Source: Sphingobacterium sp. UBA2700
GTDB lineage: Bacteria > Bacteroidota > Bacteroidia > Sphingobacteriales > Sphingobacteriaceae
Assembly (NCBI GenBank): GCA_002354335.1
Contig: DELI01000034.1
Span: forward strand, 1-60,771
Length of the DNA: 60,771 nt
Reading direction: 5' to 3'
Part shown: piece after piece, positions 1,080 to 46,011 of the stretch
Position numbering within the stretch: position 1 is the stretch's first letter
Layout of the letters: each line of letters starts with the position of its first letter
Program-made: the position numbers and the translations under genes
The notes under the pieces: generated by a model
Seen by the model: only the letters and a program-made list of their open reading frames with translations
Databases searched by the model: none
What the model was told of the DNA's origin: nothing

Positions 1080-1174
1080 GCACAGCAAGTGAGTAATAAG
1101 AGTAAGTAATTTCATAATTAGGTTAATAATTGGTTTGTTAAAAATCCTGAGGACCCCAACCTCAGGATTTTTTA
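1080..1174 (+). ncRNA. candidate small RNA, copy A of a three-copy family
   Basis: The segment contains the block TAGGTTAATAATTGGTT (within 1110-1140) shared with 36116-36146 (+) and 45881-45912 (-). It is followed directly by an intrinsic terminator: stem AAAATCCTGAGG (1141-1152) and its complement at 1160-1171, loop ACCCCAA, then a T-run to 1173. The strand is opposite to both neighbouring genes, so it cannot be their terminator in the usual sense. The putative 5' end lies near 1100-1110, downstream of GCAC-N6-TG at 1080-1091, a spacing also present in the other two copies. I do not recognise a named RNA family. No reading frame spans the block. Confidence 0.6.
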
Positions 1175-1221
1175 TTTGTGAATATTTTCCAACAAACCAC
1201 GATCATAAATTTTGCATGCTA

Positions 1222-1546: not shown

Positions 1547-2395
1547 TTATTTTTCCTCATGGAATACTAAAATAGGAACTTTGGAGTGAAATGCTAGGTT
1601 ATTGCTAATGCTATTGTTAAACATACGATCGAAAAAGCTCCTATTGCGTTTCACAACAGCCAGGATGTCAATATTGTTTTCCAATAGGTATGTTGTGATG
1701 GTATTTTCTATGCTTTCTACTTCGTCGAGTAATACATAATTGATGTCTTCGTTAGGAAACTCATGTCGCCAGTTTTCTGTCTGCAATAAAACATCAGCGA
1801 TTTTTGAGTTGTGAAGGATGTTTAAGCAATCCAGTCTGGCATTGACTGCTCTTGCCATGATTATTGCTTCACGGAGCGCTGGTTTATCTTTTTCGCGGAA
1901 GAGCGTAGTGAACACTACGCGGTTGATACCTTGGTATTTTGCATGAGGAGGCACCGCTAATACTGGGTTTTGTATGTTTTTGATCACATTGACGGTATTC
2001 GATCCAATGATTTTGGATAGGAATCCACTTTCTCCGTGGGTACCCATCACGACCAGGTGTATTTTCTCGCGATCCACAATCTTTCTCACCACTGAAGCCA
2101 CAGGTCCTTCCTCAAATAGGAAAACTAGCTCTACATCGGAAGCATCCTCCGCTTCAGCAATCTTCCGCATGCCCTGGGTTTTCTTTTTATACGTTTCGAA
2201 TTGGTTCAGTTCGATGGATTGATAAACCTCTCCAATTAATTCAGGCTGACCGGCATGTGTCGCGGATAATACGGGCTCTACATACGTGTATAACACATAT
2301 ATCTTTGCATCGATCGACTTGGCGATGTGCAAAGCATAGACGAATGCATTTGTTGCAATGTCTGAAAAATCGGTTGGGAATAATAGGGCTCTCAT
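1547..2395 (-). CDS. universal stress protein, tandem UspA domains
   Basis: A 282-residue two-domain Usp protein (about 1-145 and 150-282), a paralogue of the protein at 53-901. The ATP-binding signature G-x2-G-x9-G-S is complete in domain 1 (G118, G121, G131, S132 counted from the ATG at 2395). The frame is open to a GTG at 2416, but the ATG at 2395 aligns with the start of the paralogue and has AAAGAAAG just upstream, so I prefer it. It is followed after 3 bases by the small gene at 1307-1543. Function is probably a nucleotide-dependent stress regulator; nothing in the sequence identifies the stress. Confidence 0.92.
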   Translation of the reverse strand: MRALLFPTDFSDIATNAFVYALHIAKSIDAKIYVLYTYVEPVLSATHAGQPELIGEVYQSIELNQFETYKKKTQGMRKIAEAEDASDVELVFLFEEGPVASVVRKIVDREKIHLVVMGTHGESGFLSKIIGSNTVNVIKNIQNPVLAVPPHAKYQGINRVVFTTLFREKDKPALREAIIMARAVNARLDCLNILHNSKIADVLLQTENWRHEFPNEDINYVLLDEVESIENTITTYLLENNIDILAVVKRNRSFFDRMFNNSISNNLAFHSKVPILVFHEEK

Positions 2396-2607
2396 GGTCT
2401 TTCTTTTTTGTGTCACTTAAATTTACCAAATATTAAGCAGATTGATAATGATAGCAGTCATTATTTCAGTTTATCCTGTAGCATTTTGCTAAGATTTTAC
2501 GTACTCCTAATAAAATAAGTAATTTTGAGGTAATGTTATGGAATAAGGCTAATTAAACGATTTTAGGAAGAGAAGAAATTATGTCAGTATTGGAGCTTAG
2601 ATAACCA

Positions 2608-9046: not shown

Positions 9047-12000
9047 ATGGGAAAATCAATTAAATCCATTAGTGGCTCCTATCTTCCTAAAGGGCTACTA
9101 AGGGGTGGTTTCCTGCTTTCTTTGGGACTTTTGTCAATCAGCAATATGGCTGTTGCCGAAGGCAACCTTTGGAATAGGATATCAACCCATCCACTACATG
9201 CGGTACAATCTACCGTAAAAGGCCGTGTATTAGATGCTAATACGAAAGAGCCTATTGCCGGAGCCACTGTTAAAGTGGTCGGCAAATCGACTGCCACTTC
9301 CACCGATGATGCTGGTAATTTTGAGATTAGCGCTTCAGCAAACGATGTGCTTGAAGTATCCTATATTGGGTATCTGAAGGCTTCCTCTGTTGTCACTTCG
9401 CCTTCTCAAAACATTACGATCGAAATGGCTGTTGACAAGACGACCTTCGAAGAGGTCGTGGTAACGGGCTATGGTGCTCAGCGCAAGAAAGACTTGACGG
9501 GTTCTGTTGCTGTCGTTAATGTCAGTCAATTAAAATCTCAACCTGCTGCAACCGCTGTAGAGGCCTTGCAAGGGCGAGCGACAGGGGTACAGATTGTCAA
9601 TGATGGTGCTCCAGGCTCGACTCCTCAAATCCGTATTCGCGGTTACAGTACGATCAACAACAATGAGCCTTTATATGTTATCGATGGTGTTCCGTATGAA
9701 GGAAAGCTAAGCTGGTTCAACCAGAACGATATCGAGACCATGCAAGTACTGAAGGATGCTTCTGCGGCATCCATCTATGGTGCTCGTGCGAATAATGGTG
9801 TTGTGATTATTACAACAAAATCGGGAAAAGCAGGTAAAACCTTGGTCAATGTTGATGCTTATGCTGGCGTCGGCGTGCCGAATAGAGGGGCATTTCCAAA
9901 AATGCTAAGCCCGCAGCAAGTAGTCGATATGAAGAATACCCTGTTCAAAACGAATAACGTAGTGCCCGATTATCTATTGGCTGGTGCAAAAAATAAGGAT
10001 ATCACGGCGGCAGACGTGGACATGGCTAAATATTATTATAACATAAAAGATGCAAACAACTTCTACCAAATAACGAAGGCCAACAAAGAGGGAACCAATT
10101 GGTTCGATGAATTGTCGCAGAATGCGCCTATACAATCTTATCAAATTGGAGCAACTGGCGGTAGCGAAAATGCTACCTACGCATTCTCCGGTGGCTATTT
10201 AGATCAAAAAGGTACGGTTATCCACACCGGCTTCAGACGTTACAACGGACGCACAAATACCCAATTCTCGGCATTAAATAAGAAACTACGTTTCGGTGAG
10301 AACTTACAATATAGTTATACCGAAGGTTATGGCTTCGGGGTAAACCCGAATACTGCCGGAGGGTATATCGGTGAAGGTTCGGTAATGGGTTTTGCATATC
10401 GTATTCAGAATGTTGTTCCGGTATATGATGAAGGTGGAAACTTCGCAGGTACGAAAGGCGGATGGGGTAATGGTCAGAATCCTGTAGCGATGTCCTACCG
10501 CGCGAAAGATAATATGAATCGTCAGAACTTTTTCTTCGGAAATGCATTTGCAGAATACGATATAATCCAGGGATTGACTGCAAGGACTAGTTTCGGTATC
10601 CGTTATGAAAATTATAATGGCTTGAGCTACAACTATCCGAACCCTGAATTCACGGAAGGATCGTTCAATAACGGTATGAGTGAATACCATGGCTATACCA
10701 CCGAATGGACTTGGACCAATACTTTAAACTACAAACCAGATCTTGGCGAAGACCATAGCTTAAATGTGCTCGTTGGTACGGAAGCAATCAGCAATCGCAA
10801 TAGAGGTATCAGCGGCTCTAGAAATGGTTATTTCATTTTGAACAGTTTGGACTATTTCTACCTCGATGCTGGTAGCACGAATATCAATAATGGTGGATCA
10901 GGTTCGGTTGGCTCTATGTTTTCCTTAATGGGTAAGGCTGATTACTCTTACAAAGACCGCTATCTATTAAGTGCTACGGTTCGTCGTGACGGTTCGTCTA
11001 ACTTCGGTGAAAACAATCTATATGGGGTATTCCCAGGTATCAGCGGTGCATGGCGTATTTCGCAAGAGGAATTTGCTCAGGGCGCAGAATGGTTAACTGA
11101 TTTGAAACTACGTGCTGGATACGGGGTAACAGGTAACCAACGCATCAGTGCATACGAATACTTAGCACGCTATAGAGCTTCTTTAACCCAGTCATCTTAT
11201 CCGATTAATAATGAGGTGGTGACAGGTATTTGGAAAAGTAACTACCAAAATCCGGATATCAAATGGGAGCAAGTAAAATCATTGAACTTGGGTATTGACT
11301 TTGCTGTTCTTCAAGGCGACTTAGACGGTTCCATCGATTGGTACAATAAAGCAACAGAAGACATGTTGTTCCGCGTTCCTCTGCCTGCAACTTCAGTAGG
11401 TCGTGCAACTTCGCCATATCAAAATATTGGCGAAATGCGCAATCGCGGTATCGAGGCAAGCTTAGGATATCACTATGGCCGCCGTCAGGAAAAACCATTC
11501 ACATTAGATGTTACCGGTACGATATCAACCTATAAGAACGAGGTCGTATCCTTAGCGCCTTCTATTACGCAAGTTAACTATGGGGCATTCCGCAGTATGC
11601 AGACCTCCTTACTCAAAACAGGGGAAGAGTTCGGTGCTTTCTACGGTTACCAAGCTGATGGAGTTTATAACGACGATGCAGAGCTTAAAAACTCTCCAAT
11701 ATATCCAGGAGCGCGCTTGGGCGGTGCAAAATACAAAGATATCAACGGCGATGGCAAGATCGATCCTGCTGACCGTACGATCATCGGTAGTCCGCACCCT
11801 GATTTTGTGTACTCGTTAAATCTTGCAGCAGCTTACAAGGACTTTGATTTAACCTTATTCTTCTACAGTTCTCAAGGTAATGACCTTTACGAAGCAACGC
11901 GTTACTTCACAGATTTCGGTGTTTTCAATGGACAGTACAGCACACGTTTATTAGATGCTTGGAGCCCTAACAATACAGGTAGTGAAGTTCCATCAATCAT

Positions 12001-12310
12001 CGGTCAGGGCGATCTTAATGAAATGGAGGTTGCTACTTCATCACTATACATCCAGGATGGTAGTTTCTTAAAGCTTAAAAACTTACAGATCGGTTATAAT
12101 TTAAACACAACCAAATTGTTTGGACAGAATACGTCGTTCAATAAAATGCGTATCTATTTTGGAGCAACAAATCTATTCACGATTACGAAGTACACAGGTC
12201 TAGATCCAGAGATTTCAGCTACACCATCGGATTACCCGGCATTGGGTGTTGACTTTGGGGTTTATCCGCAATCTAGACAGTACACTTTAGGCGTGAGCTT
12301 AGGATTCTAG
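9047..12310 (+). CDS. SusC/RagA-family TonB-linked outer membrane importer
   Basis: A 1087-residue TonB-dependent transporter. A signal peptide (about 1-37, hydrophobic core GGFLLSLGLLSISNMAVA) is followed by a carboxypeptidase-regulatory-like domain (about 57-129, VKGRVLDANTKEPIAGATV), the TonB-box-like EEVVVTGYG at 135-143, the plug (about 145-270, with the SusC signature IRGYSTINNNEPLYVIDGVP) and a large beta-barrel ending in GVSLGF. It imports a bound ligand through the outer membrane with energy from TonB/ExbBD. The SusD partner follows 30 bases later. No glycosidase, peptidase, sulfatase or dedicated regulator is next to the pair, so the substrate cannot be inferred. Confidence 0.96.
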   Translation: MGKSIKSISGSYLPKGLLRGGFLLSLGLLSISNMAVAEGNLWNRISTHPLHAVQSTVKGRVLDANTKEPIAGATVKVVGKSTATSTDDAGNFEISASANDVLEVSYIGYLKASSVVTSPSQNITIEMAVDKTTFEEVVVTGYGAQRKKDLTGSVAVVNVSQLKSQPAATAVEALQGRATGVQIVNDGAPGSTPQIRIRGYSTINNNEPLYVIDGVPYEGKLSWFNQNDIETMQVLKDASAASIYGARANNGVVIITTKSGKAGKTLVNVDAYAGVGVPNRGAFPKMLSPQQVVDMKNTLFKTNNVVPDYLLAGAKNKDITAADVDMAKYYYNIKDANNFYQITKANKEGTNWFDELSQNAPIQSYQIGATGGSENATYAFSGGYLDQKGTVIHTGFRRYNGRTNTQFSALNKKLRFGENLQYSYTEGYGFGVNPNTAGGYIGEGSVMGFAYRIQNVVPVYDEGGNFAGTKGGWGNGQNPVAMSYRAKDNMNRQNFFFGNAFAEYDIIQGLTARTSFGIRYENYNGLSYNYPNPEFTEGSFNNGMSEYHGYTTEWTWTNTLNYKPDLGEDHSLNVLVGTEAISNRNRGISGSRNGYFILNSLDYFYLDAGSTNINNGGSGSVGSMFSLMGKADYSYKDRYLLSATVRRDGSSNFGENNLYGVFPGISGAWRISQEEFAQGAEWLTDLKLRAGYGVTGNQRISAYEYLARYRASLTQSSYPINNEVVTGIWKSNYQNPDIKWEQVKSLNLGIDFAVLQGDLDGSIDWYNKATEDMLFRVPLPATSVGRATSPYQNIGEMRNRGIEASLGYHYGRRQEKPFTLDVTGTISTYKNEVVSLAPSITQVNYGAFRSMQTSLLKTGEEFGAFYGYQADGVYNDDAELKNSPIYPGARLGGAKYKDINGDGKIDPADRTIIGSPHPDFVYSLNLAAAYKDFDLTLFFYSSQGNDLYEATRYFTDFGVFNGQYSTRLLDAWSPNNTGSEVPSIIGQGDLNEMEVATSSLYIQDGSFLKLKNLQIGYNLNTTKLFGQNTSFNKMRIYFGATNLFTITKYTGLDPEISATPSDYPALGVDFGVYPQSRQYTLGVSLGF

Positions 12311-36086: not shown

Positions 36087-36186
36087 TTTGGCACACAAAT
36101 TGTGTATTACTTAGTATTCATAATTTAGGTTAATAATTGGTTAGTTAAAGCTTGTAATCTCCCCGATTACAAGCTTTTCTTTTTTA
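36087..36186 (+). ncRNA. candidate small RNA, copy B of a three-copy family
   Basis: Block TAGGTTAATAATTGGTT within 36116-36146, then an intrinsic terminator: stem AAAGCTTGTAATC (36147-36159), loop TCCCC (36160-36164), complement (36165-36177) and a T-rich tail to 36186. Upstream, TTTGGCAC (36087-36094), five bases and TTG (36100-36102) lie about 14 bases before the conserved block. It points away from dbpA and ends next to the stop codon of the convergent DUF2807 gene. No coding potential is visible. Confidence 0.65.
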
Positions 36187-37131: not shown

Positions 37132-37692
37132 ATGAAATTAATAGAACATTTTAGAAAGTATTATCAAATTGATGATGAGCTAGAGCAAAAGTTAGACATG
37201 ATTATTGAAACCAAGGAGTTCAATAAAGGAGATGTTATTTTCGAGCCTGGCACCTATCTGAAACATATTTATTTTATCGAGGCGGGATTCACTCGAATCT
37301 TTTATTATAAAAATAAGAAAGACATTACCCACTTGTTTTTTGGTTCCAATTCGTTCAGTACGGGTATCGAAAGTGTTTTTTATCGGAAACCTGCTTTCTT
37401 CGGTTTTCAGGCGCTAGCGCCTTCCACCATAAGTTCTATGCCATTTGCTGTTATTGAAGAACTTGCGGAAACGAATATAACGATGAATAAAATAATTCAG
37501 AAAGTACTGTTGGACAATCTGATTCATTTTTCGAACCGTTTTTACAATACGCAATTTGAAACGGCCCACGAACGTTACAATTCGCTTATCCATGAGAACC
37601 CGGAGCTATTTCAAAATGCCACGCTGGGTCATATCGCCTCTTACCTCGGGATTTCACAACAAACCCTATCAGTAATACGCGGACAGAAATAG
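37132..37692 (+). CDS. Crp/Fnr-family transcriptional regulator
   Basis: A 186-residue regulator with an N-terminal cyclic-nucleotide-binding-type beta-roll (about 1-115: FNKGDVIFEPGTYLKHIYFIEAGFTRIFY, here quoted as GDVIFEPGTYLKHIYF) and a short C-terminal helix-turn-helix (about 160-186, LGHIASYLGISQQTLSVIR). The residues needed for cAMP binding (the RxS phosphate cassette) are not visible, as is common in the Bacteroidota members, so the effector is unknown. It lies 75 bases ahead of the TolC-HlyD-permease operon and may control it. Confidence 0.9.
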   Translation: MKLIEHFRKYYQIDDELEQKLDMIIETKEFNKGDVIFEPGTYLKHIYFIEAGFTRIFYYKNKKDITHLFFGSNSFSTGIESVFYRKPAFFGFQALAPSTISSMPFAVIEELAETNITMNKIIQKVLLDNLIHFSNRFYNTQFETAHERYNSLIHENPELFQNATLGHIASYLGISQQTLSVIRGQK

Positions 37693-45822: not shown

Positions 45823-45845
45823 TATTGATCTTGATAGAACTTCAT

Positions 45846-45942
45846 AAAAAAACTCCTAAAGCGGGGAGCTCTAGGAGTTTTAACTAACCAATTATTAACC
45901 TAAATTATGAAATTTAATAAGATAATATCAAGTTCTGTGCCG
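45846..45942 (-). ncRNA. candidate small RNA, copy C of a three-copy family
   Basis: On the minus strand, the conserved block (45881-45912, containing TAGGTTAATAATTGGTT) is followed by an intrinsic terminator: stem AAACTCCTAGAGC (45868-45880), loop TCCCC (45863-45867), complement with one G-U pair (45850-45862) and seven T residues. Upstream, CGGCAC (45942-45937), five bases and TTG lie before the block at nearly the same distance as in copy B. It is downstream of the efflux operon on the same strand, so here it could also end that operon. Confidence 0.62.
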
Positions 45943-46011
45943 AAGTTCTTTTGAATATTCCATTTAACATTTGTTAACAATTAAATGAAGATTCTCCGCT
46001 TTATTTAAATT

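Follow-up and report, generated by a model that had tools for sequence, protein, structure and literature searches.

The question raised by this locus is what kind of sequence stands three times, in nearly the same form, between unrelated genes of a 60,771-nucleotide contig of Sphingobacterium sp. UBA2700 (hereafter the window). The original prediction was a dispersed regulatory RNA family without a name, in which a constant 5' block is followed by a terminator stem whose pairing, rather than sequence, is kept. Computation now establishes the family and describes its structure, spread and promoter-like sites; in one genome it also reveals an excess of complementarity to susC translation starts. 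Of these findings, the promoter-like sites, a C-rich loop found across the family, copies on viral DNA and the susC complementarity go beyond what had been predicted.

Three copies of one element and its conserved parts

The 17-base block TAGGTTAATAATTGGTT occurs exactly at 1119-1135 (+), 36126-36142 (+) and 45886-45902 (-), with no further site in the window when up to 3 mismatches are allowed; the expected count is 0.31, and none of 100 shuffles reached the three sites that had been claimed. Each copy belongs to an element of about 69 nt (Table 1) made up of a constant unpaired 5' block and an intrinsic terminator with a variable stem. As predicted, hairpin and T-run follow the block at once in all three copies, and the stems pair fully in the folds, G-U pairs included. 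The edges described on either side of the block are found at the three sites, except that copy 1 is one T short (TTTCATAAT-TAGG) and its block ends in TTTGTT, and the block proves longer than 17 bases, being approximately TTCATAATTTAGGTTWATAATTGGTTAGTT in the family. It carries stops in all three forward frames (TAA, TAG and TAA, read from the sequence).

Table 1. Positions of the three elements, their parts and a SusC-type gene in the window
Feature	Position	Strand	Basis
Element copy 1	1110-1177	+	Covariance model R1, 72.6 bits, E 4.2e-14; copy part of R1 training set
Constant 5' single-stranded block, copy 1	1110-1139	+	Sequence; fold adds a weak hairpin inside the block
Terminator hairpin, copy 1, loop ACCCCAA	1140-1172	+	Fold
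Element copy 2	36116-36183	+	R1, 85.2 bits, E 6.6e-17; copy part of R1 training set
Sigma-54-like -24/-12 promoter, copy 2, TTGGCAC-N5-TTGTG	36088-36104	+	Score 12.5/15, start -39
Constant block (proposed seed), copy 2	36117-36146	+	Sequence
Terminator hairpin, copy 2, loop TCCCC	36147-36177	+	Fold
Element copy 3	45844-45912	-	R1, 92.1 bits, E 1.9e-18; copy part of R1 training set
Sigma-54-like -24/-12 promoter, copy 3, TCGGCAC-N5-TTGAT	45927-45943	-	Score 11.5/15, start -42
Constant block (proposed seed), copy 3	45882-45911	-	Sequence
Terminator hairpin, copy 3, loop TCCCC	45849-45881	-	Fold
SusC-type transporter gene	9047-12310	+	Pfam Plug, TonB barrel, CarboxypepD_reg; 99.6% identical to SusC of G001

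The flanking genes are indeed unrelated, their domain annotation differing from copy to copy: two Usp genes beside copy 1, a DEAD helicase and a DUF2807 gene beside copy 2, and a gene of no family and an ABC-2 permease beside copy 3. The universal stress protein genes that flank copy 1 lie at 53-901 and 1547-2416 (-). Over 60,745 bases the window is 98.0% identical to a genome assembled as one contig of 4.37 Mb (G001), in which copy 1 has a syntenic counterpart at 1207812-1207879.

The structure of the family was derived from 184 copies, that is, 202 less 1 at an edge, 6 without a T-run and 11 duplicates, so that the terminator is partly a condition of the set, just as the constancy of the block is partly one of choice because the block formed part of every search pattern. 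The block consensus is UUCAUAAUUUAGGUUWAUAAUUGGUUAGUU; when folded, the elements have a median length of 69 nt (range 63-82), and their 5'-most 32 nt are mostly unpaired (median 31). Compensatory changes occur at all 8 model pairs, with 90.4% of cells pairing in the modelled stem, and the covariation score of 0.624 compares with 0.229 +- 0.018 in shuffles, none of 500 equalling it, and with at most 0.215 when partners are slid. The stem therefore behaves as predicted, but pairing is not all that is kept, since the C-rich loop is retained too (as ACCCCAA in copy 1 and TCCCC in copies 2 and 3). CCC is present in the terminator loop of 174 of the 184 copies, TCCCC forms the loop in 134, and among 333 other terminators in 2.8 Mb of G001 a single one has CCC in its loop. 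With stems that vary and a loop that is nearly fixed, the loop is a second conserved element, and it may have a role of its own.

Distribution, promoter-like sites and viral copies

Allowing at most one mismatch, the block is found in all 36 same-genus genomes, with 5-38 copies in each, and once or twice in 3 of 23 genomes of other genera; a backwards control pattern matched in 3 of the 59 genomes, once apiece. The covariance model R1, built from 59 of the first 60 reference copies (120 available; L017, with its aberrant 5' end, was left out), recovers the element from 98 of the 121 genomes searched in the bacterial family and from 19 of 25 genera, with no more than 31 matches per genome, which answers the search that the original prediction had put forward as a check. 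A sample of the phylum gave matches in 13 of 296 genomes, six of which lie outside the family and have one weak match each (E 6e-6 to 4e-4). Several genomes hold close tandem copies. Conservation at fixed positions disappears outside the unit (179 copies, from 189 matches after removal of edge cases and duplicates). The 5' edge is biased for loci L031-L150 because their retrieval pattern contained TTCATAATT; of 48 copies fetched without it in the pattern, 45 carry TTCATAATT at no more than one mismatch, 33 of them exactly, and in this set the edge at -10 persists, with a T-run in 45 and CCC in 43. No part of the window matches Rfam 15 at curated thresholds, in keeping with the prediction that this is not a named family, and a description of the family was found neither in Rfam 15 nor in the literature searched by words. 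The dispersed RNA family that had been proposed is thus supported by its presence in 36 of 36 genomes, compensation at 8 of 8 pairs, unconserved flanks, stops in all forward frames and promoter-like sites of three kinds, and the element is apparently a small-RNA gene, present in many copies and so far undescribed, that belongs to bacteria of the Sphingobacterium type and to their phages.

An unconstrained scan placed a sigma-54-like site (TTGGCAC-N5-TTGCW, score at least 11/15) upstream of 64 of the 179 copies, and 47 of the 64 sites start at -40 to -37; the corresponding counts were 3.8 per set of shuffles and 12 for a control region. Two other kinds of upstream site were recognised, one a CGTTA box resembling ECF -10 elements, the other a sigma-A-like TAnnTTTG. 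Among 184 copies, 61 have the sigma-54-like site in register, 45 have CGTTA or CGTTT and 16 have TAnnTTTG, compared with 8, 10 and 0 respectively in controls placed 30 nt further upstream with as many start positions. At least one kind is in register in 107 of the 184 copies; window copies 2 and 3 carry the sigma-54-like site, and the 77 copies that match none of the three include window copy 1. A single general promoter is accordingly rejected, the copies being split into at least three kinds with a remainder fitting none. The implied start sites fall at -15 to -8, a range bounded by design since the in-register search was confined to set windows, and position -10 is where the block begins. 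In a third of the copies a -24/-12 promoter-like site stands at the right distance for a sigma-54-dependent sRNA; rpoN, which codes for sigma-54, is present in 59 of 60 genus genomes, and G001 gives four strong matches to sigma-54 activators. According to the parts of PMC9723704 available to us, the sigma-54 regulon of Flavobacterium psychrophilum includes, besides chaperones and envelope-stress genes, a single putative regulatory RNA, and ECF-type promoters in that species are marked by a CGT box; on the strength of these sigma-54 and ECF data, envelope stress may be a signal here also.

The element is also carried on 42 IMG/VR viral contigs (L325-L366), all of them matched by R1. Matches longer than 300 bases link 35 of the 42 into one cluster. 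One contig is identical over 1184 bases (100%) to the stretch of S. mizutaii NCTC 12149 that surrounds the copy there, three are in part 94.5-97.4% identical to a Sphingobacterium metagenome-assembled genome, and L351 codes for portal and head proteins. A near search of named phages gave no match, and a distant search returned one record, Tenacibaculum phage JQ, with 29 bases at 93%. Of the 42 viral copies, 12 have a tRNA T-arm motif in the 45 nt upstream; at a control distance the motif is seen in 3 of 41, and among bacterial copies in 1 of 178. ARAGORN places a tRNA ending no more than 10 nt before the unit on 4 of the 42 contigs (tRNA-Asp in L338 and L351, tRNAs without a resolved anticodon in L352 and L353). 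At such tRNA-linked copies the sRNA might be made as a tRNA trailer and released by tRNA 3' processing.

Complementarity of the block to susC start regions

Candidate targets were sought in 2.8 of the 4.37 Mb of G001, where 2173 genes were called; a non-coding leader of 60 nt precedes 1265 of these, including 29 susC genes. Start codons were taken as the first ATG of each frame, and 56 of 113 candidates were scored for the SusC list. Within this genome, complementarity between the block and susC translation starts exceeds what chance would give. A search made without the sRNA, and limited to 7-mers occurring in at least 4 susC leaders, returned TAACCAA as the most enriched (7 of 29 susC leaders versus 17 of 1236 others, p 4e-7), which is the complement of UUGGUUA in the block; the second, AACCAAA, is nearly as enriched (7 versus 18) and complementary to the block only in part. 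The duplex energy of the block with start regions averages -13.1 kcal/mol for susC and -9.8 kcal/mol for other genes (AUC 0.80), an excess reached by none of 5000 label permutations. Nor did any of 300 dinucleotide-shuffled blocks, compared on 300 of the 1236 non-susC leaders, reach the susC difference (observed -3.30, shuffled -0.50 +- 0.53), although the reversed block also gives some susC excess (-1.38 versus -3.30). Relabelling the SusC set with an HMM made from the scored list (30 leaders) gave the same result, with p 6e-9. In addition, UUCAU at the 5' end of the block can pair with the start-codon context AUGAA.

This is a property of the susC class and not of strong targets at large. 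With a simple duplex score over all genes, the block has 75 strong targets against 76 in 60 base shuffles, which is no excess, while the susC class alone stood out (0 of 60 shuffles). Eight of the 29 susC leaders are within the first 39 of 1265; their ranks run from 6 to 919, most are not among the very best targets, and non-SusC genes hold most of the top places. The window's own SusC-type gene belongs to the predicted target class, and its ortholog in G001 is outside the 50 best-scoring leaders. Other loci of the genus and its kin repeat the result weakly (p 0.017, with 10 SusC-like among 626 leaders and some genes truncated).

The best leader of all 1265, at -25.4 kcal/mol, is that of a fecR-type anti-sigma gene (G001 2262069-2263167 (-); L296:2070-3167), directly followed by a SusC-type gene (HMM E 2.3e-159), and 12 of 13 fecR-like genes have a SusC-type gene next. 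As a target class in their own right, fecR genes were set aside as weak (12 leaders, p 0.036). A cNMP-binding gene of Crp type lies near copy 2 in the window (37132-37692 (+)), and the syntenic gene of G001 (L245:3828-4388), of the same length and domain score, is the ninth-ranked predicted target.

Proposed function and its relation to known RNAs

We consider it probable that the element is a multicopy, trans-acting sRNA that represses the synthesis of SusC-type transporters and works like FopS of Bacteroides. That it is transcribed, that it represses and which signals it answers are matters we infer from the features described above. Each copy would be a free-standing gene for an RNA of about 65-75 nt. 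Depending on the copy, a sigma-54, ECF-type or sigma-A promoter would drive transcription from a point close to the block's edge, and the element's own terminator would end it. The single-stranded block would then pair around the start codon and leader of mRNAs that open SusC/TonB-transporter operons, thereby blocking the initiation of translation. Many copies with different promoters would allow several signals, probably including envelope stress, to feed a single output, namely reduced synthesis of outer-membrane transporters.

The choice of targets is where an alternative carries some weight. The sRNA family could be real and multicopy and yet act mainly elsewhere than on susC, the block serving to bind a protein or as a generic tag against start codons, with the C-rich loop as the effective seed for G-rich stretches of mRNA; the loop nearly equals the block in conservation and is peculiar to the family, most of the top target places fall to non-SusC genes, and strong targets overall are not in excess. 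Against this, susC leaders stand out from both shuffles and permutations, and a k-mer search that knew nothing of the sRNA recovers a complement of the block; we hold such a reading to be unlikely, if worth keeping in mind. It is very improbable that the repeats are mobile or selfish DNA, spread by phage or duplication and kept as neutral terminators. The end of a mobile element had been named as the finding that would overturn the original prediction; nothing of the kind is seen in the chromosomal copies, but viral contigs, 42 in number, do carry copies, and several genomes have them in close tandem. A mobile unit nonetheless accords poorly with flanks that are not shared outside the unit, with stem changes that are compensatory while block and loop stay fixed (the block being part of the search pattern), with promoter-like sites in register, with presence in 36 of 36 same-genus genomes and synteny in G001, and with neighbours of the window copies that lack any transposase domain; nor was a conserved target-site duplication noticed at those copies. 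Least credible of all is a role in cis, as leader or attenuator of the following gene: an element that ends in an intrinsic terminator could serve as one, but each of the three window copies is oriented towards a gene encoded on the other strand and so is not a leader of what follows, and the block remains the same while the neighbouring genes differ and are unrelated.

If the repressing sRNA is accepted, its viral copies invite a further proposal that we regard as doubtful. Sphingobacterium phages may carry a host SusC-repressing sRNA, partly as a tRNA 3' trailer, so as to shut down outer-membrane transporters during infection or lysogeny, for example keeping out other phages for which these transporters are receptors, with the host family acting as a many-promoter envelope-stress hub that phages have copied and that operates with neither Hfq nor an RRM chaperone. 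In the portion of PMC8375218 consulted, TonB-dependent nutrient receptors are named with other surface structures that have been linked to the susceptibility of B. thetaiotaomicron to phages; the use of viral copies against other phages is speculation. The viral copies do make the question of phage-host RNA testable.

It is our impression that most knowledge of sRNA regulation in Bacteroidota comes from Bacteroides and a handful of other species. Here, most Sphingobacteriaceae genomes searched hold a family that combines one RNA, several promoter kinds and a clear candidate target class. Were its proposed function true, post-transcriptional control of SusC would be a wider habit of the phylum rather than a gut speciality tied to RbpB, and one achieved here through another RNA and other sigma factors, in the absence of an RRM protein.

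The closest counterpart is FopS of Bacteroides thetaiotaomicron (RF04319, BTncRNA_FopS). In the sections of PMC11697453 that we draw on, FopS is described as a multicopy RNA (14 copies) with bands of about 65 and 70 nt, in which an unpaired 5' seed precedes the terminator; it has canonical sigma-A(Bfr) promoters, is bound by the RRM protein RbpB and blocks SusC translation by start-codon pairing, and it is known from a Caudovirales phage too. Our element resembles it in size, in its unpaired 5' part and Rho-independent terminator, in its paralogous nature (5-38 block copies per genome), in its occurrence on phage or viral DNA and, by computed complementarity, in having SusC start regions as predicted targets; an alignment shows that FopS shares AGGUUAAUAA with the A-type block, the remainder of the R1' seed matching in part only. 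Unlike FopS, however, window copy 2 scores 29.0 bits against a curated RF04319 threshold of 56, copies 1 and 3 give no match at the gathering threshold at which they were compared, and 20 other loci (L003-L016, L018-L023) give none even at E<=10. The sigma-A-like TAnnTTTG is in the minority (16 of 184), outnumbered by sigma-54-like and CGTTA sites, and the fixed C-rich loop, a family trait here, is not mentioned for FopS in those sections of PMC11697453. A search for RRM_1 proteins gave hits in none of the 36 same-genus genomes but in 13 of 23 other members of the class and in the control Bacteroides, so that a counterpart of RbpB was not found. With a sub-threshold Rfam score and no RRM partner in the genus genomes searched, identity with FopS is rejected. 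RF04319 itself was matched in 1 of 148 genomes of the phylum, below the cut-off, and in the control Bacteroides. The sub-threshold match, of 43.9 bits, lies in another Bacteroidota family at L323:1500-1570, antisense over an apparent gene start, ATGAAAAACAC.

The Qrr sRNAs of Vibrio are likewise multicopy; their genes are sigma-54 driven and they act with Hfq, whereas Hfq was found in 0 of 40 genomes here, and the likeness drawn is in copy number and promoter type. RybB and MicA are sigma-E-dependent sRNAs of enterobacteria, as stated in the part of PMC1804206 used here. The logic we propose is theirs, from stress sigma factor through sRNA to less outer-membrane protein, although the stress link is a supposition here and the sigma factors are different. 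RybB and MicA also differ from our element in copy number. Within the phylum, Rfp36 (sigma-54) and Rfp11 (CGT-box, ECF-type), listed in the portion of PMC9723704 seen as putative regulatory RNAs of Flavobacterium psychrophilum, have the same types of promoter, and it is by this listing, and not by sequence, that they are likened to the present family.
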